Positions 2,643 to 32,848 of a DNA stretch of 36,736 nt are shown piece after piece. The stretch lies in the NCBI GenBank assembly GCA_944350445.1, contig CALVOW010000015.1:1-36736 (forward strand), in the 5' to 3' direction. The notes under the pieces were generated by a model. That model was not told where the DNA came from, did no database searches, and saw nothing but the letters and a program-made list of their open reading frames with translations. Source of the stretch: an uncultured Bacilli bacterium. Its GTDB lineage: Bacteria > Bacillota_I > Bacilli_A > RF39 > UBA660. Position numbers and translations under genes: made by a program. How positions within the stretch are numbered: position 1 is the first letter of the stretch; each line of letters opens with the position of its first letter.

Positions 2643-5600
2643 ATGGAAAATAAAAAAGGATTTACATTAGTAGAATTAATAGGTGTAATAGTAATATTAG
2701 GTATAGTTTTAGGATTAGTAAGTATTGCTTATATTGGAATAAGTAATCATATTAAAATGACATATTATAATGGGATTGAAACGGTTTTACTAGAAGCAGG
2801 TGGTGAATATTATACTTATAATAGTGAAAAAGCACCTCAAATCTTTGGTAATAATGTAGAAGTTAGTATTGAAACATTAGTAAATGAAAAATATGTTGAA
2901 GAAGTAAAAGCTCGATCTGGAAATAGTTGTACTGGAAGTGTTGGTGCTTATAAAAATAGTTATGATCGGACTAATTATTATGTATGTTTAATATGTGATG
3001 AATATCAAAGTGAAAATCCTGTCTGTTCTGGTGAAGTTGATTATTCATTGCAAATGACAGCTACTATAAGCGATACAACTACACTGTATCAAGAAGGAAA
3101 TTTTGTCAAAGATTATGTAACTTTAACATTTAGAACTTTTAATGATATAAAAGAAATTCAAGTTGAAGATGAAAATGGAGCTGTAGTTAAAACTTGTAAT
3201 TTAGAAGTTAAAAATGATTTAGCAAGTTGTAAAATTCAAATCGACGAAACCGGTCAATATAAAGCTTATGGAGTATCAGAAAATGGAACAAAAACAGAGG
3301 AAAAAGAAATAGAAATTAAAGTTGATAATCAAAAACCAAGTTTTGACATATATGAAAATGATGTATTAATAACAAATAATCAAACAAAAGATGGTAGTAA
3401 TGGAAATATAAATTTAATAATAGATGTACGGAATATAAAAGATTTAGAAAGTGGTATTAAAAGTATTCGTTATAGTTTTGAAAAAGATGAAACTAATTTT
3501 CAAACCGTAACAACTCCAAGAGAAGAATTTACAATTGAAAAAACACTTGAAATTGGTAAATATGAATTAATTGTTGAAATAGAAGATAATGTAGGTAATA
3601 AAGAAACTAAGACAATTATATATGAAGTATACAAAAGAATAAGTATTCCAACTAGTAATCTTTATTGTAATGATTTAACTTTTAATGGATATGAGCAAGT
3701 TTTAACTAAAGAAGCGGGAACGGGTTTTACATTTTTAAATAATCGCGGTACAAATGTTGGAGATTATACAGTAACAGCTAAGTTAGAAGAAAATTATTAT
3801 TGGAGTGATGGAACGAATACTGATAAGACTCTAACATGTACAATTAAGAGGTTACAAACAGCAAATATTGGAAGTTGTAAAACGCTAACATATAATGGAA
3901 TAAGTCAATTATTAGCTAGTGGTGGAGATAATGTAACATATAAAAATGCATATGGAACTAATGCTGGAAGTTATACTGTAACAATAACTGCTACTAATAA
4001 CTATGCATTTAGTGATGGAAGTACAACTAAGAATCTAACTTGTTCTATTAATAAAAAGAATTTGACAGTAACACCAAATAGTAATCAATCTAAAACATAT
4101 GGAAGCAATGATCCAACTTTAACTTATACATATTCAGGACAAGTAAGTGGAGAAACTCCAAGATTTAGTGGTAGTTTATCAAGAACAAGTGGTGAGAGTG
4201 TTGGAACTTATGTTATTAATAAAGGAACTTTAACTTTAGTAAATAATAGTCCTTTCTTAGCTAGTAATTATAATTTAGTATTATCAGGAAATGTTAGCTT
4301 TCGAATCAATAAAAAAAATGTAAGTGGATTAGTAGTTACTTTGCAAACAACTAGTTATACTTATGATGGAACCGCGAAAACTCCATCGGTAACTGTAAAA
4401 GATGGCACTAAAACTCTTACGAATGGAACGGATTATACAGTAAGTTATACTAATAATATCAATGCGGGAACCGCAACAGTAACGATAACAGGAAAAGGAA
4501 ATTATTCAGGTACAACAACGAAAACATTTACAATTTCCAAACGAAATGTAACTATAAAGGCTAATAATCAAACTTTAAATGGCACAACAACTATCGATAA
4601 ATCTTTATCCCAAATTACAGCTAGTAATTTAGTTGTTGGTCATAGTATTACAAGTATTACTTTAACTCAATCGACAACAGCAGCTACAACATCAGGAACT
4701 ATTACACCATCAAGTGCCATTATAAAATCAGGAACTACTGATGTAACAAGTAATTATAATATTACTTATCAAACCGGAATATTAGTTATTTATTCAACAC
4801 AATTTTGTGCTAATTTTATGTTAAATGGTGCTAGTCAAATTGATGGAGTTGCAGCTAATAAAACAAATGTTTGTTGTAATGCTTCATCGGATGGAACATG
4901 TACCATAACTTCACCAATCATTACTCCAAAAACAAATTTCGAGGTGGTAGGATGGTCAGATAATGCTAGCAAATTGCAAGAAATTACTCATAATGCTGTT
5001 GATGAAAATGGAAATCCTGCAACAATTACCTTAAATGGAAATAAGACTTTTTATGCGGTTACAATAAGTAAAGCTAGTGCTTTGAAGACTTATTCAGTTG
5101 AATTTAATTTAAATGGTGCTGATTCTTTTGCTTTTCAAGGTATAACTTATAGACAAACTTATACTTTTACTTGTCGAACTAATTATGTTTATAATGGAGC
5201 ATCTATTCCTAATACGTGTACATTTACACTTCCAACCATTACAAGAAGTGGTGGAACAGTATATGGTTGGGATCCTGATGATGAAAATGAAGGAAATCCT
5301 AAGTATTCAGTAGGCGAGACAATTACCATTTCTAGTGATTTAGTTTTAAATGCTATTACTTCCAAACGAATAACTTTATCATATGATGGAAATGGTGGTG
5401 CAACAGCTTTACCTGATCAAGTAGGAATTGTCTACAATGATAAAGATGGTTATTGGTTTGATATACCAGCATATAATTATGCCAATATGTGTCGAAGTCG
5501 GGATACAGAATATGTTGGTTATAAAAGTATTGGACTTGTAACTAATCCTAATAATGATACAGCTGAATTTTGCTTAGGAGGAAAAATTTATTTAGAAGAT

Positions 5601-6647
5601 GATCAAACATTATATGGATTATGGAAAAAAGTATATGCAACCGGAACCATAAAAACAAATGGTTCAAATTTAAATATCCGTGCATCCCAAAGTACGAGTG
5701 CTACAATTGTTGGAAAAATTCCTAATGGCAAAACAGCCTATATAACTGGTGCGAAATCAGGTAGTTGGTATCCAGTTATATATGGAAGTGTTTCCGGCTG
5801 GGCCTCTTCCAATTATATACCTAGTGTAACTCCAGTTGAGGCAAGTAGTTGTAATTATACTGATTATTCTTGTGGGGGAACAGATTATGTCTTTTCAGTT
5901 ACGCCAACTAATATAGAATTAAATTTATATGAAAATGAACTATCTTATCAATTAATAATAGAAAATCAATGTGGTGATATAGTATCAGCTACAAGTAGTA
6001 ATAGTAAAGTTTCTGTAACAAGATCAGGACTTGTGTCAACAACAAGTAATGCTGTTTCATATGGTGAGACTTTAACAGCAACTTTAACTTTTACAACTGA
6101 AGGTGGATGTACTGCAACTGTAACAGTAAAAGTTAAAAATATAAATGAAACACCACCAACTGTTAATATTTCCATTAGTGGTAGTACTTATAGTTCAGGA
6201 TATAAATCGGGAGCTAAAGTTACAGTTACTTGTGAGTCAGACGAAGGAATATCATCATTTACAGCCAAAGATAATACCGGAGATACTGGAACATTAACAG
6301 TTAATGAAACTAATAGAAAACAAAGAGTAATTACGCTTAGTAGTGCAAGTAGTTCACGTAAAGTATCAGTTTCATGTACTTCTAATAATGGTATGACAAC
6401 TAGTGATTCAAGAACGTATCGAATTTATGTATATTCTAAATCTTCTGCTTGTGGAGTGGATTATTATAATTATAAAGGTGGTTATACATGTTGTAATTCT
6501 AGTGGTAGTGCCTGTGACACATATACTTGTACAGCATCTAGATACCCTTATAATGCATATTCTTACTGTCGAAATATGGGATACACTGGTGCAACAAGCG
6601 GGACTTGTACAAGATCAGCCGTTTATGATTCTTGTTGGCATACATAG
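2643..6647 (+). CDS. Giant adhesin with type IV prepilin signal, MBG, InlB-type, SH3 and Ig domains
   Basis: 1334 residues. The N-terminus MENKKGFTLVELIG is a class III prepilin signal: cleavage after Gly6, Phe at +1, Glu at +5, then a hydrophobic helix to about residue 33. A pilin-like head (to about 130) is followed by Ig-like segments. An MBG/beta-sandwich array spans about 335-718, including an MBG_2-type unit with SKTYGSNDPTLTY. Two or three InlB B-repeat/Listeria-Bacteroides-like units come next (about 719-995), then a bacterial SH3 domain (about 997-1060, NLNIRASQS... GWASSNYI) and two more Ig-like domains. The last ~70 residues carry eight cysteines. The protein is presumably processed by a prepilin peptidase and displayed at the surface, maybe as a pilus-tip adhesin. 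Pilins are usually 100-200 residues, so this architecture is very unusual. Start supported by AAGGTGAG two bases upstream. Confidence 0.88.
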   Translation: MENKKGFTLVELIGVIVILGIVLGLVSIAYIGISNHIKMTYYNGIETVLLEAGGEYYTYNSEKAPQIFGNNVEVSIETLVNEKYVEEVKARSGNSCTGSVGAYKNSYDRTNYYVCLICDEYQSENPVCSGEVDYSLQMTATISDTTTLYQEGNFVKDYVTLTFRTFNDIKEIQVEDENGAVVKTCNLEVKNDLASCKIQIDETGQYKAYGVSENGTKTEEKEIEIKVDNQKPSFDIYENDVLITNNQTKDGSNGNINLIIDVRNIKDLESGIKSIRYSFEKDETNFQTVTTPREEFTIEKTLEIGKYELIVEIEDNVGNKETKTIIYEVYKRISIPTSNLYCNDLTFNGYEQVLTKEAGTGFTFLNNRGTNVGDYTVTAKLEENYYWSDGTNTDKTLTCTIKRLQTANIGSCKTLTYNGISQLLASGGDNVTYKNAYGTNAGSYTVTITATNNYAFSDGSTTKNLTCSINKKNLTVTPNSNQSKTYGSNDPTLTYTYSGQVSGETPRFSGSLSRTSGESVGTYVINKGTLTLVNNSPFLASNYNLVLSGNVSFRINKKNVSGLVVTLQTTSYTYDGTAKTPSVTVKDGTKTLTNGTDYTVSYTNNINAGTATVTITGKGNYSGTTTKTFTISKRNVTIKANNQTLNGTTTIDKSLSQITASNLVVGHSITSITLTQSTTAATTSGTITPSSAIIKSGTTDVTSNYNITYQTGILVIYSTQFCANFMLNGASQIDGVAANKTNVCCNASSDGTCTITSPIITPKTNFEVVGWSDNASKLQEITHNAVDENGNPATITLNGNKTFYAVTISKASALKTYSVEFNLNGADSFAFQGITYRQTYTFTCRTNYVYNGASIPNTCTFTLPTITRSGGTVYGWDPDDENEGNPKYSVGETITISSDLVLNAITSKRITLSYDGNGGATALPDQVGIVYNDKDGYWFDIPAYNYANMCRSRDTEYVGYKSIGLVTNPNNDTAEFCLGGKIYLEDDQTLYGLWKKVYATGTIKTNGSNLNIRASQSTSATIVGKIPNGKTAYITGAKSGSWYPVIYGSVSGWASSNYIPSVTPVEASSCNYTDYSCGGTDYVFSVTPTNIELNLYENELSYQLIIENQCGDIVSATSSNSKVSVTRSGLVSTTSNAVSYGETLTATLTFTTEGGCTATVTVKVKNINETPPTVNISISGSTYSSGYKSGAKVTVTCESDEGISSFTAKDNTGDTGTLTVNETNRKQRVITLSSASSSRKVSVSCTSNNGMTTSDSRTYRIYVYSKSSACGVDYYNYKGGYTCCNSSGSACDTYTCTASRYPYNAYSYCRNMGYTGATSGTCTRSAVYDSCWHT
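3912..3983 (+). repeat. 72-nt exact repeat shared with the upstream adhesin gene (copy 2)
   Basis: Matches 400-471 exactly, in the same direction. The flanking module sequence is similar but not identical. Confidence 0.9.
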
Positions 6648-7707: not shown

Positions 7708-10641
7708 ATGTACTTAAAAGAAATAGAAATATCTGGTTTTAAATCATTTGCAGATAAAATAAATATTAATTTAGATAATCAAATAACATGTATAGTTGGA
7801 CCTAATGGATCAGGTAAAAGTAATATTGTTGATGCCATTAGATTTGTTCTTGGGGAGCAATCTGTCAAATCACTTCGCGGTGACAATTTAATGGCTGATG
7901 TTATTTTTTCAGGTTCCAAAAACCGTCCTCCTATGCATGCTGCTTCCGTTACTTTAACTTTTGATAATCAAGATAATTATTTAAATGTTCCCTTTCAAAA
8001 TGTAGCTGTTAGAAGACGATTATATAAAACTGGTGAAAATGAATATTTTTTAAATGGTGAAAAATGTCGATTAAAAGACATTGTGGATCTTTTTTTAGAT
8101 AGTAGTATTGGAAGAGACTCTTTTAATATTATTGGTCAAGGAGAAATAGCTAAGATTTTGTCAAATTCATCCTATGAAAGAAGATTAGTAATTGAAGAAG
8201 CAGCTGGCATTTTAAAATATAAAAAAAGACGTGAAGAAGCTTTTAAAAAATTAGATAAAACTAATTTAAATTTAGATCGAATTAAAGATATTATTGAAGA
8301 AGTTAAAAATCGCCTTGATCCTTTAAAAAAACAAAGTGAAAAAGCTAAAAATTATTTAGAATTTAAAAAAAAGCTAGAAACTGTTGAAGTTTCCTTGTTA
8401 GTAAATGAAATTACAACTTGGAATTTAACTTATCAAGATAGTAAAAATAAACTAAAAAGTTATGAAGAAGAAATTGTTAATTTAAATAATAAAATAAATA
8501 ATCCGGAAATAGAAACTTTAAAATTACAAGTTTTAAACATGGAAAAAAACATTCAAAGTAAAAATAATGATCTCATTAATTTAACAAGAGAAAAAGCCGA
8601 AATTAACACCAAAAGAAGTGTTTTAAAAGAAAGAAATAAATATAAATTAGAAAATATTAAACTTCAAGAAAATATTAATTATTTAAATGAAACAAAACTT
8701 TCTTTAGAAAAAAATATTGAAATTAATAATCAAGAAATTACGAATTTAAATTTAAAGAAAAATAATTTAGAACAAGAATTAAATACGGATTTAGATTCTT
8801 TAAATCAAGAAAAAAGGAATAAAGATAATATAGAAAAAGAATATCAGTTTAAAAAGAAAGAAATTTGGGAATTAACTAATAAAATTGAAATATTAAATAA
8901 TAATATACGTGATAATGTTTATTTAAATAATAATACAAGAAAAGTTTTAAATAATCCCAAATTAACTGGAGTACATGATGCTTTAATTAATCTTGTTAAG
9001 ACAACATCTTTATATCAAAAATGTTTAGATGTTATTATGTCATCTATTAAAAACTTTATAATTGTTGATAATCCTGAAAGTGCGAATTCTTGTATTTCTT
9101 ATTTAAAAGAAAATCATTTAGGAAGAGTTACTTTTTTACCACTTGCTGTTATCAAGGCTCGTTATATTGATTTGGAAACCAAAAATATCTTAGAACATGA
9201 AGTAGGTTATCAAGGTGTTTTAAGTGATTTTTTAGAGTATGATAAAAAATATCAAAATATTATATTAAATCAATTTGGAAATATTATTGTTGTTGATAAT
9301 TTAGTAAATGCTAATTCAATTAGTAAAAAGATAAATAGTCGTTATCGAATCGTGACAATTGACGGTGATATAATTCATACTTCGGGAAGTATTACGGGAG
9401 GTTCTTTAGAACCGTTAAAAAGTACGGTTAGTTTAAAAAATGAGTTAATAGAATTAGAACTAAAGATAAATAAGAATAAAACAAGTCTTTTAGAATTTGA
9501 AAGAAAATTAAATGAAGTAAGTGATAAGATAAGTGCTTATGATAAAAAAGTATATGAGGCACGTCATCAGTTATTAGAAATAGTTGATTCTTTAAATGAT
9601 ACTAGAAAAAGACAAGAAAGTAAAAAACAAGAGTTAGAAAATGTTCTTTTAGAGCTTAAATCATTAGATAGTAATAATACTTTAAAAGAAAGTGAAGAAT
9701 TAGATAAAACTTATTTTGATAAATCTTTAAAATGTGATTTATTAGAAAAAGAAATTAATGATTTAATTAAAGAAAAAGATAAAATACAAGCTCATATTTT
9801 AGAAGAGGAAGGAATTAGAAAAGTAAACCAAGCTAATTTAAACCAAATTGAAAAAGAAATGGCTAACTTAAATCTTTTGCTTCAGGATTTAGATATAAAA
9901 ATGGATACCAATTTAAATATTTTAAATAATGAATATAGTATGACTTATGAAAGAGCTAAAGAAGAATATGCAAGTAGTTTAGATATTGAAGAATCAAGAA
10001 GAGAAGTAGAAGAAATTAAGAAAGTCTTAAAAAGTATTGGTATGGTAAATTTAGAGGCAATAGAAGAGTATGAGGAGGTAAATAAGCGATATACTTATTT
10101 AACGAAAGAACGAGATGACCTAATGCATGCTAAGGATATGCTATATTCAATTATTGAAGAGATGGATGAAGTCATGCAAAGTGATTTCTTGAAGACTTTT
10201 CAAGAACTTGAAAAAGAATTTAAAAAAGTTTTTAAAGAGTTATTTAGAGGCGGAGATGCTTCTTTAAAATTAACAGATCCTAATAATTTATTAGAAACAG
10301 GAGTCGAAATTGAAGCATCCCCACCAGGAAAGAAATTAAAGACGGTGACGCTTTTATCAGGTGGAGAGAAAACGTTAACAGCTATTAGTTTATTATTTGC
10401 TATTTTAAATATTCGTAGTGTACCTTTTTGTATTTTTGATGAAGTAGAAGCAGCTCTTGATGAAGCTAATGTTGATAACTTTGGAGAATATTTAAGTCAT
10501 TATCAAGATAAAACACAGTTTTTATTAATTACTCATAAAAAAAGAACAATGGAATATGCAAAGACTTTATATGGAATTACCATGCAAGAATCAGGCGTTT
10601 CTAAACTTGTTAGTGTAAAGTTAGAAGATAATTTAGTTTAG
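7708..10641 (+). CDS. smc: Chromosome segregation ATPase SMC
   Basis: 977 residues. SMC dimers load with ScpA/ScpB and organise and resolve the chromosome. The N-terminal ATPase half has a Walker A motif (GPNGSGKSN, 31-39). A long coiled coil runs to a hinge at about 418-565, with LTGVHDALI at its start and TSGSITGG at its end. The returning coil leads to the ABC signature LLSGGEKTLTA (about 882) and Walker B CIFDEVEAALDEA (about 907). Bacterial SMC is usually near 1180 residues, so each coiled-coil arm is clearly shortened while heads and hinge are complete. AAGTGGTG precedes the ATG. The usual neighbours rnc and ftsY are absent; the gene stands alone between adhesin blocks and ends at its own terminator. 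Confidence 0.97.
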   Translation: MYLKEIEISGFKSFADKININLDNQITCIVGPNGSGKSNIVDAIRFVLGEQSVKSLRGDNLMADVIFSGSKNRPPMHAASVTLTFDNQDNYLNVPFQNVAVRRRLYKTGENEYFLNGEKCRLKDIVDLFLDSSIGRDSFNIIGQGEIAKILSNSSYERRLVIEEAAGILKYKKRREEAFKKLDKTNLNLDRIKDIIEEVKNRLDPLKKQSEKAKNYLEFKKKLETVEVSLLVNEITTWNLTYQDSKNKLKSYEEEIVNLNNKINNPEIETLKLQVLNMEKNIQSKNNDLINLTREKAEINTKRSVLKERNKYKLENIKLQENINYLNETKLSLEKNIEINNQEITNLNLKKNNLEQELNTDLDSLNQEKRNKDNIEKEYQFKKKEIWELTNKIEILNNNIRDNVYLNNNTRKVLNNPKLTGVHDALINLVKTTSLYQKCLDVIMSSIKNFIIVDNPESANSCISYLKENHLGRVTFLPLAVIKARYIDLETKNILEHEVGYQGVLSDFLEYDKKYQNIILNQFGNIIVVDNLVNANSISKKINSRYRIVTIDGDIIHTSGSITGGSLEPLKSTVSLKNELIELELKINKNKTSLLEFERKLNEVSDKISAYDKKVYEARHQLLEIVDSLNDTRKRQESKKQELENVLLELKSLDSNNTLKESEELDKTYFDKSLKCDLLEKEINDLIKEKDKIQAHILEEEGIRKVNQANLNQIEKEMANLNLLLQDLDIKMDTNLNILNNEYSMTYERAKEEYASSLDIEESRREVEEIKKVLKSIGMVNLEAIEEYEEVNKRYTYLTKERDDLMHAKDMLYSIIEEMDEVMQSDFLKTFQELEKEFKKVFKELFRGGDASLKLTDPNNLLETGVEIEASPPGKKLKTVTLLSGGEKTLTAISLLFAILNIRSVPFCIFDEVEAALDEANVDNFGEYLSHYQDKTQFLLITHKKRTMEYAKTLYGITMQESGVSKLVSVKLEDNLV

Positions 10642-10816: not shown

Positions 10817-12697
10817 ATGAAAAATTATTTAAAATTTAATAAAAAGTATGCATTAATTTTTTTGATTTTATTAGCAATTATTCTTTTAATCGGAACAAGT
10901 TATGCTCTTCTTCGAAGCAGTTCCCGAGGAGAAAATACTTATGTTATGAATGTAGGTTTATTAGAAGTAACTTTTCAAGATAGTGAAACAAATAATTTAA
11001 ATCTTGAAAATGCTGTTCCGATGACAGATAATGAAGGAATGAATCAGTCTAATGAACTTACTTTTACGATTAAAAATACAGGCGATTTAGCAGCTGGTTA
11101 TGATGTTTATATTGAAGAAACATCAACAAGTCCTGAGTTTAAAACGGTAATTAGATTTATTTCAAATAAAAATGATACCGGGTATAATAGTCCTAAAACT
11201 TTATCTGAAGATTACTATATTGAACAAGGTGGAGTTTTAGCAGTAGGAGAGAGTGCAACTTATAAAGTAAAACTATGGTTATCAAAAACAGCCGATAATA
11301 CTTATATGAATAAAACTTTTACAGCCAGAATTGTGGTTGATTCATATCAAACTAATGATTTAAGAGCTAATATTAAGTCGCAAATAATATCTAATCAAAC
11401 CGATACTTGTCAAACTTATGTTGAAGAAGATGGAATAACTTATATATCAGGAACGTCTGATTGTATAGATTTTAATTATGTTTGGTATAGTGGTAAATTA
11501 TGGCGAATAACGGCGATTTATCCGGATGGTACGATGAAAATGATAACTGATGATACAATAACAGCAATTCGATATGGAAGTAATGTCAATTTCTATACGG
11601 ATGAGAGTAACAGTTCTTATATATATCAATGGTTAAATGAAGATTTTTTGAGTACTTTAGTAAATTCAGAAAATATCATTGTCACCGATGCTAGTTGGAA
11701 TGTTACAAATTCAAATGCCTCTTCGACATCAGAAATTAGTACTAAATTAGAAGAAACTACCATTGTTACAGTTCCTGTAGGTTTATTAAATAGTTATGAA
11801 TACTATAAGAGTTATCAAAATACGAATTATGGTAGTGGATATTTAAATATAGGTTATAGTTGGTGGTTGTTGAATCCTTATTCCTCCTTGGATATGTGGT
11901 ATGCGAGCTACAACGGCGATGCGTATCACTACTCTCCGTCCAACTACAAGTTTGGCGTTCGCCCATCCGTCAATCTGCAATCAGGAATCACGATAAATGG
12001 TGGAAATGGAACCAGTAGTGATTCATACACAATAAGTGGAGATATAGAAACAATAACAGCTGGTACTACTCTTTTAAACACAAGAGAAAGTGGCGAATAT
12101 GTCAATTTTGATGGTGACCTATATCGAATCGTCGCCATTGAAAACAATACTACCAAATTAAATAAAATGGATTATGTAAGAGATAGTAATAATATTGTAA
12201 GAACTAAGAATTTTTCAAGTAATGTAACCTATGGAAGTGGAGATAGTGAGACCTACCTCGATTATTATTTGAATAATACATGGTACAATTCTATTGCTGC
12301 AAACTATAAAAATATGTTAGTTGAAGGAACATATTATTTGGGAACAACCAGCATCAATTATAAAGGAGCTATTTGTGCTACCGCCAGTAATACAGTTACA
12401 ACCAAAGACTGTGAAAAAACAAGCAGTACTTGGATCGGATATGTAGGACTTCCAAGATATGGTGAAATGTTTGCAAGTCAGCAAGAAAGTGGATATTCTT
12501 CATCAAGTTCTATGTGGTTAATAACCCCAAATTCTACCTCGCGTGTCTGGTACATTGGCACCAACGGCGCCGCCGCTGAAAGCGATAGTCCGTCCAGCAA
12601 CTTGTACGGCGCCCGCCCATCCATCAATTTGTCATCAGCGGTTAAGATAACAGGCGGTTTAGGAACTAAAGAATCACCATTTGAAATTAGTCTTTAA
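10817..12697 (+). CDS. Surface protein with TasA-like leader and two DUF6273/C-lectin-like domains; putative DGR target
   Basis: 626 residues. An N-terminal hydrophobic segment ends in GTSYALLR. A beta domain follows (about 40-185) that resembles the TasA/camelysin family exported by SipW-type signal peptidases, with NELTFTIKNTGDLAAGYDVYI. Two homologous C-terminal domains follow (about 193-410 and 411-626), each with a WRI/YRI strand, a WxL strand and an ending like GVRPSVNL...GGxGT. This is the DUF6273/C-type-lectin-like pattern, a scaffold that DGRs elsewhere diversify. The last variable stretch of each domain (11873-11977 and 12524-12631) is GC-rich and differs between domains mostly at codon positions 1 and 2. 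I infer a ligand-binding surface protein diversified by a DGR acting in trans. No sortase motif is present. It could also be an ordinary duplicated lectin domain. Confidence 0.82.
   Translation: MKNYLKFNKKYALIFLILLAIILLIGTSYALLRSSSRGENTYVMNVGLLEVTFQDSETNNLNLENAVPMTDNEGMNQSNELTFTIKNTGDLAAGYDVYIEETSTSPEFKTVIRFISNKNDTGYNSPKTLSEDYYIEQGGVLAVGESATYKVKLWLSKTADNTYMNKTFTARIVVDSYQTNDLRANIKSQIISNQTDTCQTYVEEDGITYISGTSDCIDFNYVWYSGKLWRITAIYPDGTMKMITDDTITAIRYGSNVNFYTDESNSSYIYQWLNEDFLSTLVNSENIIVTDASWNVTNSNASSTSEISTKLEETTIVTVPVGLLNSYEYYKSYQNTNYGSGYLNIGYSWWLLNPYSSLDMWYASYNGDAYHYSPSNYKFGVRPSVNLQSGITINGGNGTSSDSYTISGDIETITAGTTLLNTRESGEYVNFDGDLYRIVAIENNTTKLNKMDYVRDSNNIVRTKNFSSNVTYGSGDSETYLDYYLNNTWYNSIAANYKNMLVEGTYYLGTTSINYKGAICATASNTVTTKDCEKTSSTWIGYVGLPRYGEMFASQQESGYSSSSSMWLITPNSTSRVWYIGTNGAAAESDSPSSNLYGARPSINLSSAVKITGGLGTKESPFEISL
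11873..11977 (+). repeat. Putative DGR variable region 1
   Basis: This is the 3' end of the first lectin-like domain, residues about 353-387. 11881-11980 has 51 G/C in 100 by hand count, well above the AT-rich flanks, and uses TAC, AAC, GGC and CGC codons that the rest of the gene avoids. Aligned with the second region it keeps a fixed scaffold (W-Y, N-G, P-S, G-x-R-P-S-x-N). In 13 codons the first and/or second base differs while the third is the same, for example TAC/AAC, AAG/TTG, TCT/GAT and GAT/CGT. Confidence 0.72.
12524..12631 (+). repeat. Putative DGR variable region 2
   Basis: This is the 3' end of the second lectin-like domain, residues about 570-605. 12541-12620 has 51 G/C in 80 by hand count (64%). 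It is one codon longer than region 1 (an AGT before CCGTCC). The shared 3' stretch CGCCCATCC-RTC-AAT-YTG would be the candidate for the mutagenic-homing initiation end. Confidence 0.72.
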
Positions 12698-12702
12698 GAT
12701 GT

Positions 12703-12756
12703 AAAAAATCAAGAATTAAAATAAACTAAATTTAAATTTAATACTTGATTTTTTTT
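12703..12756. terminator. Bidirectional terminator between convergent genes
   Basis: AAAAAATCAAG (12703-12713) pairs with CTTGATTTTTT (12744-12754). The T-run serves the plus-strand surface-protein gene. The A-run becomes a T-run for the minus-strand protease gene, whose stop codon lies within the loop. Confidence 0.75.
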
Positions 12757-13805
12757 ATAATTTTTTTATTATTAATACTAATAGAATAGTTTTTATTATT
12801 ATTTATAACAAAAAATTTAAAAAGTAAATTATTTAAAAACATATGCAGACTTTTATTAAAATCTTCTTCGGTTATCTTACCTTGGTTAAATTCTTCTTTT
12901 AATTTATTATAATAACAGTTAATTAAAAATTTATTAATGACTAATAAACTTCTTTTTAACATCATTCTTGTTAAAATATCCGTATTTTTTAAATTTATAT
13001 AACTATGTAAAAAGTCAAATTTAGTTATAAAGTCCATTATTTCATCAAGGCTTATATATTTAGTTAATTCTTTGATTAAACCTTGTAAATTGGCAGTAAA
13101 ATAAAAATCTTCCATTAATTCTTGACCAATTATTAATTCTAAACTTTTAGCAATTACAACTTCGGTTTTATAAGCATTAATTGTTTCAAAATCCGGAAAA
13201 TATCTTTTGACTAAAACTTCGGTATAACCTTCATTAAGACCAAGACCAATTCCTTTATCATTTTTTTCTTGATGGAAACCACAAAAAGTTATAATATCAT
13301 TATCATTTTTTATATTACAAGAACTAGCAACATGGAATAATTCATGAAATATAATTTTATTTACTTCTTTTTCATTAAGCAAGAGATAATTTTTTTCACT
13401 ATGATATCCACCAAGTGTTATTGATGTTACTGATTTATTTTTGGAAAAGTTATAATTAATAATTAAAAGATCTTTTAAATTATTAAAAAATAAAGGAAAT
13501 TCACTATTTGGCTTTTTTTCTTTTAAGCGATTATAAAATAATGTTATTAAGTCATTATATAATCGGTTTTTTTTGAGACTTTCCTCTTGGATTTTTTCTA
13601 TTACTTTTTTACTTTCAACATCTTTAAAACTTTTTCTTTGTAAATCTTTTTTTAAAACCTTTGTTTCTTTCCTAAGTTTAAATAACTTCTCAGTTAAATT
13701 GGCTAAGATAATACCAGAACTACTTCCAGCTAAAAAAGTTAAGAACATCATAAGTATATCATCTTCTTTTAAATAATTAATATTTTGTTTATTAAATTCT
13801 TGCAT
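12738..13805 (-). CDS. Putative membrane-anchored zinc metalloprotease
   Basis: 355 residues. A short leader is followed by a transmembrane segment (about 17-37) and a basic coiled-coil-like stretch (about 38-85). Then comes a predicted catalytic core with HELFH at 154-158 (HExxH zinc motif). NEGYTE at 191-196 could supply the third, glutamate ligand, as in gluzincins. The C-terminal half is helical and of unknown family. AAAGGAGG precedes the ATG and fixes the start. The gene has its own transcript on the strand opposite both neighbours. The substrate is unknown. Which side of the membrane the core sits on cannot be told from sequence alone: the lysines following the segment suggest it faces the cytoplasm. 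Confidence 0.7.
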   Translation of the reverse strand: MQEFNKQNINYLKEDDILMMFLTFLAGSSSGIILANLTEKLFKLRKETKVLKKDLQRKSFKDVESKKVIEKIQEESLKKNRLYNDLITLFYNRLKEKKPNSEFPLFFNNLKDLLIINYNFSKNKSVTSITLGGYHSEKNYLLLNEKEVNKIIFHELFHVASSCNIKNDNDIITFCGFHQEKNDKGIGLGLNEGYTEVLVKRYFPDFETINAYKTEVVIAKSLELIIGQELMEDFYFTANLQGLIKELTKYISLDEIMDFITKFDFLHSYINLKNTDILTRMMLKRSLLVINKFLINCYYNKLKEEFNQGKITEEDFNKSLHMFLNNLLFKFFVINNNKNYSISINNKKIIKKIKY

Positions 13806-27435: not shown

Positions 27436-27483
27436 TTATTTAAATATGTTTTGTTTCAAAGACATTTGGAAAGGAAAATACCT

Positions 27484-30400
27484 ATGAATAAAAATTTGTT
27501 AACAAAAATTAAAAATTATTTATCTAATTACGATAAAAAGGTAAGGCATCGAAAAATATTTGCTGGGTTAGCAGTTATTGTTGCTTTTTGTACGATTTTG
27601 GCTTTAATTAAACCAGCTATTACCTTAGAAAACACATTGATTTGTGAAAGGGAAGAGCATGTTCATAGTGAAAATTGCTATACTGATGAATTTATTTGTG
27701 AGGAAACTGCTGAAAATTTAAATAATGATAGCTGTTATCAGTTAGTTTTAACTTGTGAAAAAGAGGAACATACTCATGATGAAAATTGTTATCAAAAAGC
27801 TAAGAGTTCTAGTACGGAAATTGAAATAACTCCAATCGAAGATAATTTCGAAATAGCAACTTTTGAAGCTCGAAGTACAACTTCTGTAATTGCTAATTTA
27901 ACTATTTATGCTACTAATTATTATAGTTCTGCTTATAATAATGCTATTTTGGCTTATAGTAATGCCTCAGGGCAAACAGTTGCTAATGTTTTATCAACAA
28001 CTATGTCATATACATATTGGACAGCCTTAGTTGTTGAAAATCAAAATGGAAATTATGTGGTAAATAATATTATTGGAAGTGGTTCTCCAAAAAACACCTT
28101 AGTAGTTCCTCAAAATGGTTTTATAATTTTAGTTAATGATTCTACTTCAATTGCTGCTATTTCTCAGGTTATTGTTGGAGCGATTGTTACTTCTAATTTT
28201 GATTTTACAAATCAAAATTATAATCCAGCCGGTCTTGGTACTTTAAGTTTTTCTATGGAAGTAGATGTAGGTGAAGAGAAACCAACAATTGATAATAGTT
28301 CAAAATTGCATATTGTTGAAGGGGCTGACACTAAGGATTTAATTGAAGTTAATTTATATAATTATGGTACAGCTATTAATAGTATGTATGATCAAAATAA
28401 AAAATATCCTGGTTTTCAACAAAATGGTGGAACTAAAAACATTAGTACTTTCGATGAATATAGTTTTAATTTTGGTGATAATATAACAGCTGAAATTTCT
28501 AATATTAGAAATAATATTACACATTCCGGTGATACATTAGATATTAATTCAACCAATACTAAAGAAAATAATAGTATTAATCGCCCAATTTCTGGGGTTA
28601 TGAATTCGACTTTAATTAATGGCTATCCAGCTTTAAAAGATGGTAGTAGTTTAGCTTATTTATTTACGCAAAATGCTAGTACTTCAACTACAAAGAAAAA
28701 TACAGAAAGTATTAATGGTTTATTTCAATATAATAGTACAACTGGGGCTTATAGTTATAATAGTCGAGAAAATCATGCCCAGTTTAATGCTAGCAATAAT
28801 ACTTTCACTTTGTATCAAGAAATTATTACTTCTAATTTTATGATGTATCCATTTGGAAACTTCTTACCATTTAATAGTATAGTAACGGAAGCAACCCAAG
28901 CAAGCACCATTGATCGTAGTTATTTTGAAATGATTGCTAATAGTGCTTTATATAAAGCCAATAATGGTTATGGTAGTAGTTATTCGCAATTAGCATCATC
29001 TCTAACGCAATTTATTAAATTAATGGATGCGGAATATGGTTCTAATTGGGATTCGGGAACCGCTGCTAGTGCTTATTTTAAATATGCTGCTAATTTAAAT
29101 GATCAAGTTATTTCGACAAGTAGTTTAAGTAATGTTTATTCGATTGATTATGATGAAGCAACTGATTTCTTTTTTGGACTAGAAATGAAAATGAATTTCA
29201 TGCAACCAAAAGATGGAAAAACCGGGCAAACCGGTGAAGAGTTGATGAAATTCTACTTTACTGGTGATGATGATGTTTGGGTTTATATAGATGGAATTTT
29301 ATTTCTAGATTTATCAGGAATTCATCGTCATGTCGGTGGAGAAATAGATTTTTACAATGGTGTTGTTAATTATTATGATTTAGATATTGCAACAGGTGAT
29401 GTTAAAGAAACACCAACGAAAACTGTAACTTTTAGAGAAATATTAGAAAGTGCAACGGGAAACGCTAATAGTTTAAATGAAAAAGGAACTTTTGAAAATT
29501 ATTCTACACATACTTTTAATTTCTATTATATGGAGCGTGGTTCTGGATCAGGAGTTATGCGAATGAATTTTAATATGCCTCTTTTAAAGAAAAATTCTAT
29601 TTCGGTAACCAAAGAATTAACAGTTGATGATGGATCTTCGCTTGGAAATCCTGATTTTAAATTTCAAATATTAAAGGCAACTGGCGATATTAAAACGGAA
29701 ATTCCTTTTATTGGTGAAGGAACAATATATGATGTTTACAATGAAAGTGGTATAAAAGTGCGAACTGGTACGGTTTTAGCAAACGGAATTTTTACTTTAA
29801 AAGCTGGAGAAACAGCTGTTTTTAGTGAAATAGATGAAAATGCTGGTCAATATTATGTTCGGGAATTACTAGATAAAGAATGGGCATCTCAATATAAACA
29901 AGTGACTGTTGATGGTGAGGTTACTTTGGTAAATTCTTATAATGATATTACAATTGGAACAGAAAAATTTTCGGGAATTGAAACAGCAATTAAAGATGCT
30001 AGTAGTGGTAATACATATTTTAACTTTAATAATCGAATTGATACCAATAAATATGGTTCTTTAAAAATATTAAAAGTAATTTCTGGATCAGGGACAACTT
30101 CTTTAACAAGAAACTTTAATTTTACGGTTAAAATAGATGGAATTCTTTTACCAGTTGGTACAACTTATTATGTTAAAAACAAAGAAACTAACGAAGTAGT
30201 TACCAAAACGGTTCAACTTGAAGGAATTATTACTTTTTCTTCTCAAGAAGAAGTAGAAATTAACAATATATTAGTTGGTAGTACTTATGAAGTAGTCGAG
30301 GAAACTTTAAGTGATTATACAACAAGTTATGATAATAATACGGGTTTAATTAGTGAATTAAATCAAGAAGTAACTGTTACAATTACTAATACGGAAAAAA

Positions 30401-31296
30401 GTTCAAATATTGAAATTCCTATTTTAAAAACGATTGAAAATCCTGATGGTAAAAAGCATGATTATACGTTTAAATTAATTCAGGTAACTGATGAAACCGG
30501 TTTAACTGGTATTCCAGGTTCGACAATGACAACAACGATTGAAGATGTTGAAACAAGTAAAGAAGGAAGTTTTACAATTACTTATTATGAGCCTGATTAT
30601 AATTCTGGTGATAAACTTTACTATAAAATTAGTGAAGAAGTTAATAACAGTGACTCTAATACTAAATATGATGAAACTTTATATATTGTTGAAGTTACAA
30701 TTCAAAAAGAAACTGATTTTCAAGCTATGATTACCAAAATTATTAAAAATGGTGAAAATGTTTCAAATATTGAATTTAAAAATCAAATACTTACTAATTT
30801 AATTGTTTCCAAAGAAGTAAGAGAAAATATTTCTAATTCAGCTATTTTTGATTTTACGATTGAAGGTACTTATCAAGGAAAAGATGTTAATGCAACTTAT
30901 AAAGGTCTTTTAAAAAGTGGTCAAGAGACAATTGAAAAAGATATAATTTTTACAAATGGAAGGGCAACAATTCAATTAAAACATAATGAAGAGCTTACTA
31001 TTCTTGGACTTCCATATGGAATGGATTATAAAATAACGGAAACTAGTACAGATGGTTATGTTGTTTTATATCAAATTAATCCTGATAATAATGAAGATAT
31101 TTATGAAGGAAATTTCGTATCTGGAGAATTAAGTGATAATAATCATGTTAAATTTATAAACGTTGGAGGTTATCAACTTCCGGAAACTGGTAGTAGCCAG
31201 ACTTTAATTTTGTTAATAATAGGTACATTATTGACAATAATTCCTATTATTTATACAGGATATATGTTTTACATTAAGGAAAAGAAGGTGAGCTGA
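27484..31296 (+). CDS. LPETG-anchored ancillary (tip) pilin with fibro-slime-like and Cna-B domains
   Basis: 1270 residues. A long leader with hydrophobic segment (about 25-42) ends in KPAITLE. Two C-x4-H-x-H-x3-CY motifs follow (C54/H59/H61/C65 and C91/H96/H98/C102). A large beta region includes a PA14/fibro-slime-type segment near 592-630 (TGDDDVWVYIDGILFLDLSG, then HRHVGGEIDF). Several Cna-B/SpaA-like repeats occupy about 705-1225. The sorting signal is LPETG at 1232, a hydrophobic helix and a basic tail. By position and size it should be the adhesive tip subunit, joined by the pilus sortase. ATG at 27484 is chosen from AAAGGAAA upstream; a TTG at 27451 lacks such a site. Confidence 0.92.
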   Translation: MNKNLLTKIKNYLSNYDKKVRHRKIFAGLAVIVAFCTILALIKPAITLENTLICEREEHVHSENCYTDEFICEETAENLNNDSCYQLVLTCEKEEHTHDENCYQKAKSSSTEIEITPIEDNFEIATFEARSTTSVIANLTIYATNYYSSAYNNAILAYSNASGQTVANVLSTTMSYTYWTALVVENQNGNYVVNNIIGSGSPKNTLVVPQNGFIILVNDSTSIAAISQVIVGAIVTSNFDFTNQNYNPAGLGTLSFSMEVDVGEEKPTIDNSSKLHIVEGADTKDLIEVNLYNYGTAINSMYDQNKKYPGFQQNGGTKNISTFDEYSFNFGDNITAEISNIRNNITHSGDTLDINSTNTKENNSINRPISGVMNSTLINGYPALKDGSSLAYLFTQNASTSTTKKNTESINGLFQYNSTTGAYSYNSRENHAQFNASNNTFTLYQEIITSNFMMYPFGNFLPFNSIVTEATQASTIDRSYFEMIANSALYKANNGYGSSYSQLASSLTQFIKLMDAEYGSNWDSGTAASAYFKYAANLNDQVISTSSLSNVYSIDYDEATDFFFGLEMKMNFMQPKDGKTGQTGEELMKFYFTGDDDVWVYIDGILFLDLSGIHRHVGGEIDFYNGVVNYYDLDIATGDVKETPTKTVTFREILESATGNANSLNEKGTFENYSTHTFNFYYMERGSGSGVMRMNFNMPLLKKNSISVTKELTVDDGSSLGNPDFKFQILKATGDIKTEIPFIGEGTIYDVYNESGIKVRTGTVLANGIFTLKAGETAVFSEIDENAGQYYVRELLDKEWASQYKQVTVDGEVTLVNSYNDITIGTEKFSGIETAIKDASSGNTYFNFNNRIDTNKYGSLKILKVISGSGTTSLTRNFNFTVKIDGILLPVGTTYYVKNKETNEVVTKTVQLEGIITFSSQEEVEINNILVGSTYEVVEETLSDYTTSYDNNTGLISELNQEVTVTITNTEKSSNIEIPILKTIENPDGKKHDYTFKLIQVTDETGLTGIPGSTMTTTIEDVETSKEGSFTITYYEPDYNSGDKLYYKISEEVNNSDSNTKYDETLYIVEVTIQKETDFQAMITKIIKNGENVSNIEFKNQILTNLIVSKEVRENISNSAIFDFTIEGTYQGKDVNATYKGLLKSGQETIEKDIIFTNGRATIQLKHNEELTILGLPYGMDYKITETSTDGYVVLYQINPDNNEDIYEGNFVSGELSDNNHVKFINVGGYQLPETGSSQTLILLIIGTLLTIIPIIYTGYMFYIKEKKVS

Positions 31297-31318
31297 CTTC
31301 CGAGACTTAAAAGTAAAA

Positions 31319-31324
31319 TATAAT
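31319..31324 (+). promoter_or_regulatory. Possible internal -10 element before the major pilin
   Basis: TATAAT lies 31 bases before the major pilin start. No good -35 is found at 16-18 bases, so an extra promoter is only possible. Confidence 0.3.
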
Positions 31325-31354
31325 CCATACATAAAAAAGAAAGGAAACACAAAG

Positions 31355-32848
31355 ATGAAAAAAATATTTAAAATGATGTTTGTATTAGCTTTATTACTAG
31401 TACAACTTGTACCAGCAACATTGGTAAATGCTGTATCTGGTACGAATACAAATAATGGTAAAATTACCATCAATAATGTTTCAGAAGATAAGACTTATGC
31501 AATTTATCAAATTTTACAATTAGAGTCTTATAATACTGACACGAATTCATATTCTTATAAGGTAGTTTCTGATACTTGGAAAACATTTCTTAATGGTGCA
31601 GGATCTGCTTATGTTGAAGTAAATGAACAAGACTATGTAACATGGAAAAGTGGTGCTGATGAAATAGCTTTTTCAAAATTAGCTCTTGAATATGCTAAGG
31701 AAAATAATATTCCTGCAACGAAAACAATTACAGCCAATGAGGAAACTATTAAAAATGATGCTGGAGTAGATTATATTGAATTTACTGATTTAAATCTTGG
31801 TTATTATTTAGTAGATTCTTCACTTGGTACTTTATGTGGCTTAACAACAACTAAACCAAATGCTTCTGTTAACGAAAAAAATACAGTGCCTACTGTTAAC
31901 AAGGAAGTAAAAGAAGATTCAACTGGAGAATATACCGATTCTAATACAGCTCAAATTGGTCAAGAAGTTGAATTTAAAACAACAATTACAATTGGTGAAG
32001 GTGCTATTAACTATGTCTTATATGATAAAATGAGTGAAGGACTTAGTTATGTTCCAAATTCAATTGTTGTTAATAAAGTAGCAAGTGATGGAACTGAAAG
32101 TTTAGTTACTGATACAAATTATACTGTTACAACACCTAGTGAGTATACATTTGTAATTACCTTTAATAATACTTATATTGCAACATTAAGTGATACAGAT
32201 AAACTTGTTGTTACTTATAAAGCTATTTTAAATGATAAAGCTGTTGTTGAAGGAAATGGAAATCCTAATGAAACTTTCTTAAAGTATGGTGATGATACTA
32301 ATCATACAACTGATACTGATACAACTTTAACTTATACTTATGATTTTGAAATAGTAAAAACAAAAACTGATTATAAAATATTAACAGGAGCGGAATTTGC
32401 TTTATACACATCAGCAACTGGTGGTACTGCTATCCCACTTATAGCTTTAACAGATGAAGGAGATTATAAGGTATATCGTGTAGCAACCACAGAAGAAGCA
32501 AGTGATCCTGAATTCAAATCAGCTGTAATTCAAGCTGGAAAAGTAATAATTAGAGGCTTAGATAAAGATACATATTACTTAGAAGAAACGAAAGCCCCAG
32601 AAGGATACAATAAATTACCAGCTCGAGTAGATTTTACTGTAACTGGAACTAGTAGTGATGATTTATTAGTTACTGATGAAGTATATCAAACTAATCATGG
32701 ATTAGTAGTTGTTAATAAAACAGGTGCTGAACTTCCATCAACAGGTGGTATTGGTACAATGTTATTCATTTTAATTGGTTCAGTAATGGTAATTGGCTTT
32801 GGAATATTACTAGTAACTAAATTAAGAATGGCAAAAATTGAAGACTAA
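31355..32848 (+). CDS. Major pilin (SpaA/Cna-B type, LPSTG-anchored)
   Basis: 497 residues. The signal peptide ends near VNA (24-26 region). NTVPTVNKEVKED (about 175-187) is the pilin motif whose lysine (182 or 185) would be joined to the next subunit. A central isopeptide-type domain follows. The C-terminal Cna-B/SpaA domain contains the E-box YYLEETKAPEGYN, whose Glu promotes an intramolecular Lys-Asn bond. The sorting signal is LPSTG at 460, then a hydrophobic helix and a charged tail. Being the middle gene before the class C sortase, it is the likely shaft subunit. AAAGGAAA precedes the start. Confidence 0.94.
   Translation: MKKIFKMMFVLALLLVQLVPATLVNAVSGTNTNNGKITINNVSEDKTYAIYQILQLESYNTDTNSYSYKVVSDTWKTFLNGAGSAYVEVNEQDYVTWKSGADEIAFSKLALEYAKENNIPATKTITANEETIKNDAGVDYIEFTDLNLGYYLVDSSLGTLCGLTTTKPNASVNEKNTVPTVNKEVKEDSTGEYTDSNTAQIGQEVEFKTTITIGEGAINYVLYDKMSEGLSYVPNSIVVNKVASDGTESLVTDTNYTVTTPSEYTFVITFNNTYIATLSDTDKLVVTYKAILNDKAVVEGNGNPNETFLKYGDDTNHTTDTDTTLTYTYDFEIVKTKTDYKILTGAEFALYTSATGGTAIPLIALTDEGDYKVYRVATTEEASDPEFKSAVIQAGKVIIRGLDKDTYYLEETKAPEGYNKLPARVDFTVTGTSSDDLLVTDEVYQTNHGLVVVNKTGAELPSTGGIGTMLFILIGSVMVIGFGILLVTKLRMAKIED

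Follow-up and report, generated by a model that had tools for sequence, protein, structure and literature searches.

Two DGR-type variable regions in a chromosomal tandem lectin-like protein of an uncultured Bacilli bacterium, probably written from a template related to those of its genus

The window analysed here is a stretch of 36,736 nucleotides that forms the entire 36.7-kb contig C15 of a 1.34 Mb genome assembly (46 contigs, 94% complete), with related species that are represented in the genome collection by uncultured Bacilli/Clostridia MAGs. On its plus strand, the open reading frame at 10817-12697 encodes an exported protein of 626 aa (Pfam DUF6273, E 1.2e-7; AlphaFold mean pLDDT 85.6), in which an N-terminal signal/TM helix precedes a TasA-like domain and then two lectin-like DUF6273 domains, with a variable region (VR) at the end of each of the two. 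The TasA-like beta-sandwich domain (residues 47-179; 10955-11353, plus strand) was aligned to the TasA fibre 8aur_A by VIA-align with Z 8.2 and rmsd 2.8 over 122 residues, a score close to the level reachable by unrelated folds. The first DUF6273 domain (residues 180-408; 11354-12040, plus strand) was recognized by Pfam and by VIA-align to 9qa6, where it matched the N-terminal part of the Thomasclavelia ramosa IgA peptidase with Z 16.8 and rmsd 2.6 over 185 residues. The second (12179-12694, plus strand) was assigned by homology to the second domains of its paralogs and by a PF19789 match at C15:12179-12634, which lies under the curated cut-off. The AlphaFold model places the VRs in the strands and turns that close each DUF6273 domain. 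A C-type lectin was absent from the matches listed by Foldseek and VIA-align for the whole model, which is not evidence of absence, and the domain-only model was poor (pLDDT 34).

The gene is preceded by smc (7708-10641) and followed by an uncharacterised minus-strand gene (12738-13805), rlmN (13890) and a PASTA kinase (15667). No phage genes were found around it, and no relatives of the 626-aa protein were found on viral contigs (IMG/VR) with the patterns used. Since its neighbours are smc, rlmN and the PASTA kinase, the locus was assigned to the host chromosome and not to a phage. The protein is probably a surface or fibre-linked binding protein with both tips diversified. Elsewhere in the window, a surface-protein cluster at 27451-32848 contains a DUF7601 protein and an LPXTG pilin backbone (GramPos_pilinBB, SpaA), and a 1334-aa protein with an N-terminal methylation motif and MBG and SH3 domains is encoded at 2643-6647.

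VR1 (YSSLDMWYASYNGDAYHYSPSNYKFGVR; 11879-11962, plus strand; GC3 0.71) and VR2 (NSTSRVWYIGTNGAAAESDSPSSNLYGAR; 12530-12616, plus strand; GC3 0.72) are the two DGR-type variable regions. VR1 runs into a conserved 3' end common to other targets (CCATCCGTCAATCTG; 11963-11977, plus strand), and VR2 into its own conserved 3' end (CCATCCATCAATTTG; 12617-12631, plus strand). An earlier note on this DNA had described both regions as GC-rich islands with the marks of DGR mutagenesis. Its coordinates and reading frame for the gene and the VRs were correct, and its G+C counts (51/100 and 51/80) were close to our recount of 52/105 at 11873-11977 and 63/108 at 12524-12631. Third-codon G+C was 0.73 in the VRs versus 0.19 in the remainder of the gene. 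When the two VRs were aligned over 31 codons, base 1 or 2 differed in 19/31, and base 3 was kept in 13 of these 19, exactly the number the note had claimed, whereas shuffles expect 7.3 (p=0.0056). The note had left out that third bases differ as well: by codon position, the differences between VR1 and VR2 number 14, 12 and 9. Since nine third bases differ, and the lengths differ by one codon, VR1 and VR2 cannot both be unaltered copies of a single template. Against the nearest paralog, on contig 1, the ratio of base-1 and base-2 to base-3 differences was 1.96 inside the VRs and 0.96 outside (p=0.011, uncorrected, for one among many paralog pairs compared).

The earlier note had made its reading depend on a reverse transcriptase (RT) and a template repeat (TR) elsewhere in the genome, and both were found, in two DGR cassettes on contigs C6 and C19, each with an RT, Avd, a MutS-I-like gene and a TR. 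The C6 cassette consists of an 856-aa target gene, TR1, a MutS_I-domain protein (E 2.3e-7), bAvd (E 1.2e-10) and an intact 373-aa RT. TR1 differs from its C6 VR at 18/31 A sites and 0/78 non-A sites, and this target belongs to another family than the DUF6273 lectins. The C19 cassette contains the 3' end of a DUF6273 gene, TR2, a small MutS_I-related protein, Avd (E 1e-4) and an RT; in the assembly, the reading frame of this RT is broken between its N-terminal and YxDD parts (L010:13757-14730, minus strand). RTs of the C19 type are open in most congeners, with a single in-frame stop in one of them, so the break is particular to the assembly studied; it may be a genuine recent loss or an assembly error. 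The best solved relative of this RT type is PDB 8ub7 ('Reverse transcriptase', E 4.8e-18), which we take to be a BPP-1 DGR RT structure, and this RT type also resembles phage DGR RTs such as that of nd12. Throughout the genus, a small MutS-domain-I-like protein is encoded upstream of Avd in the DGR cassettes (L009:11211-11654 on C6; L010:15037-15342 on C19), a stand-alone domain of the mismatch-recognition type inside a mutagenic element. Congeners share, at 71-83% identity, a stretch of about 250 bases that surrounds the template repeat and continues beyond it (L010:15340-15665 on C19; L123-L128); this stretch is probably the DGR RNA, and the TR region gave no match in Rfam.

TR2 was compared with VRs of the same protein family on C19, C22 and C9. 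A sites were changed at 9/25, 12/25 and 16/25 respectively, while non-A changes were 0/53 in each and 0/159 in total (Fisher 1e-5 to 1e-10). The C9 target lies distant from the C19 cassette; contig C22 ends within its VR gene, and its VR is probably that of domain 1 in the gene to which the C19 VR belongs. The absence of non-A changes from the three VRs is strong support, at the level of sequence comparison, for a DGR that diversifies the tandem DUF6273 lectins of this genome in trans. The action in trans that the earlier note had assumed is thus supported for the protein family, alongside action next to the cassette, but the assembly contains no template that matches VR1 and VR2 themselves. 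Diversifying selection of the ordinary kind, acting on ligand-binding loops without a DGR, would be a very improbable source of the pattern. Lectin binding loops can change fast at bases 1 and 2, which speaks for such selection, but it leaves unexplained both the GC-rich third bases in an otherwise AT-rich gene and the homologous regions of sister genes that have an exact DGR template.

The two window VRs behave differently from this matched trio. VR1 differs from TR2 at 13/25 A sites and 18/53 non-A sites, and VR2 at 14/25 A sites and 15/53 non-A sites (Fisher p 0.025 for VR2); pooled, A sites were changed more than non-A sites (p=0.008). Their lengths also depart from that of TR2, by one or two codons. 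Homing depends on homology at the 3' end, as established for BPP-1; there, TR2 reads GGGGCTCGT and the window VRs read GGCGTTCGC and GGCGCCCGC, with 3/9 positions mismatched in each. TR2 was therefore ruled out as the template of VR1 and VR2 by 33/106 (31%) non-A mismatches, and none of the templates of five congeners fitted better. With 3 mismatches tolerated, a pattern search for the VR2 template in 291 genomes of the family returned only poly-A runs and VR2 itself, and a search for the VR1 template in its own genome returned only VR1 itself. The matching TR that the earlier note had expected was thus not found, and an exact template for either VR is absent from the assembly, which is incomplete. 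Since published TR-VR pairs have about 1.5 non-A changes on average (PMC6642488), the 15-18 seen here are unlikely to come from RT error. Six third bases are common to VR1 and VR2 and different in TR2; this suggests that a shared or related template, since lost and here called 'TR3', lies behind both.

It is unlikely that the roughly 5% of the genome missing from the assembly contains the matching template and an RT, with both VRs being rewritten now. In favour of this possibility, the assembly of 46 contigs is 94% complete and is broken at members of this repeat family, C19, C22 and C35 each stopping within a VR gene, and the GC3 of the window VRs is as high as that of exactly matched VRs. 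It has to face the nine third-base differences between VR1 and VR2, as opposed to no non-A difference from one template in the matched trio, and the presence in the genome of just one full-length copy of the conserved sequence surrounding TR2, the other clear matches being only two VRs.

The VRs of the paralogs form a series that grades from exact match to a TR to full AT drift (GC3 0.16 on C9B). Exactly TR2-matched VRs have GC3 about 0.70, and the C35 VR and one C9 VR show 5 non-A differences from TR2. The C1 and window VRs show 11-18 such differences with GC3 0.61-0.72, while GC3 falls to 0.46-0.48 in the C5 VRs and to 0.14-0.17 in the fully AT-drifted C9B VRs. Since the window VRs kept a template-like composition, they were probably written later than those of C5 or C9B, although not from the present TR2. 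A similar picture could arise by gene conversion, with another paralog that bears a VR as donor. An origin of the window VRs by such conversion or by duplication, followed by drift, with the DGR never writing the locus directly, is nevertheless improbable: a large family of scattered members whose 3' flanks are nearly identical speaks for copying, but the VR haplotypes of the window occur in no paralog of the genome, and the remainder of the gene stands at ordinary divergence from its paralogs.

Remote DGR targets, targets with several VRs, DUF6273 targets and orphaned targets all have precedents in known systems. In Treponema denticola, one template serves several dispersed chromosomal targets, and in isolate SP32 the VR of a remote target fits the template type of another strain, which was read as a leftover after DGR turnover (PMC4891356). 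The genome studied resembles that system in the dispersed remote targets of one template and in a remote target that would be of the leftover type. It differs in that the matching template is known in other T. denticola strains and none was found for the window VRs, and in that the window protein bears two VRs in one protein on a different scaffold. DUF6273 is a DGR target with the VR at its C-terminal end in Faecalibacterium prophages (PMC11792537), and the DUF6273 targets of gut phages nd4 and nd12 have a C-type lectin-like fold by DALI (PMC10743442). The same VR-bearing Pfam domain occurs in the window protein; however, those targets are phage proteins, whereas the present gene belongs to the host, lies between smc and rlmN and has a TasA-like N-terminus. 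Multiple VRs within one target ORF were reported for 31 surveyed DGRs (PMC6642488), found with their template, unlike the window VRs. Within the genome itself, the C19 cassette is the nearest comparison: TR2 fits tandem DUF6273 lectins from the family of the window protein, one of them remote, yet has mismatches to the window VRs at 31% of non-A sites.

Taken together, the gene at 10817-12697 is most likely a chromosomal remote (trans) target of a DGR family resident in the genus, last written from a related template that is now lost, changed or unassembled. By the established DGR mechanism, the RT and Avd, here with the small MutS-I-domain protein, would copy a GC-rich template RNA rich in AAC and AAT, with misincorporation at adenines during copying, and the cDNA would then replace the VR in the target. 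The window VRs, one per tandem lectin-like domain, would have been last written from 'TR3', and 'TR3' would since have been lost, changed or missed by assembly, in which case the two visible cassettes probably do not rewrite these VRs. Points against this reading are the missing template, the third-base and length differences between VR1 and VR2, and the interrupted RT frame of C19. A DGR origin is supported by the composition of the window VRs, which is that of written VRs, and by their shared third-base haplotype. Of the DGR reading in the earlier note, the part that stands is that DGR-type VRs lie on a known DGR target domain in a genome whose RT and TRs act on the family; a template that fits VR1 and VR2 is missing from its assembly. 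Because no template in the assembly fits, we describe the locus as DGR-written in origin and not as an active DGR target.

Genes of this kind were found in 17/17 genomes of the genus, with 1 to 23 matches per genome. The templates of congeners differ from one another at third bases, and some are without former adenines. The template of G006 (record CAMBUO), the closest relative, has CTC and TTC at places where NAC stands in several VRs of that genome (L101:6957-7040; L123), and it looks as if it had itself been changed at adenines. On C6 of the genome studied, a second TR1-like copy lies downstream of the intact RT, with a stop codon and a TR-type 3' flank (L009:9465-9677); it differs from TR1 at 19/51 A sites and 16/115 other sites, an A-biased pattern, and looks like a rewritten or decayed template copy. 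These observations hint that templates themselves are rewritten in the genus, which would explain template turnover. We tentatively propose, as a possibility that is still rather doubtful, that templates of the genus turn over fast through occasional adenine rewriting, by self-targeting or in copies. The dispersed lectin VRs would thereby record successive templates, as a dated record of those that have vanished, and the window protein would bear the prints of at least one lost template.

The analysis ties an apparently isolated pattern to a repertoire that spans the genus, in which very few templates serve the lectin genes, many of them with two DGR-type VRs. Should targets outlast the templates that wrote them, with new templates taking over, the genus would allow the birth, change and death of DGR templates to be measured, and would show how a surface lectin repertoire of gut bacteria, encoded by the host and not by phages, stays diverse.
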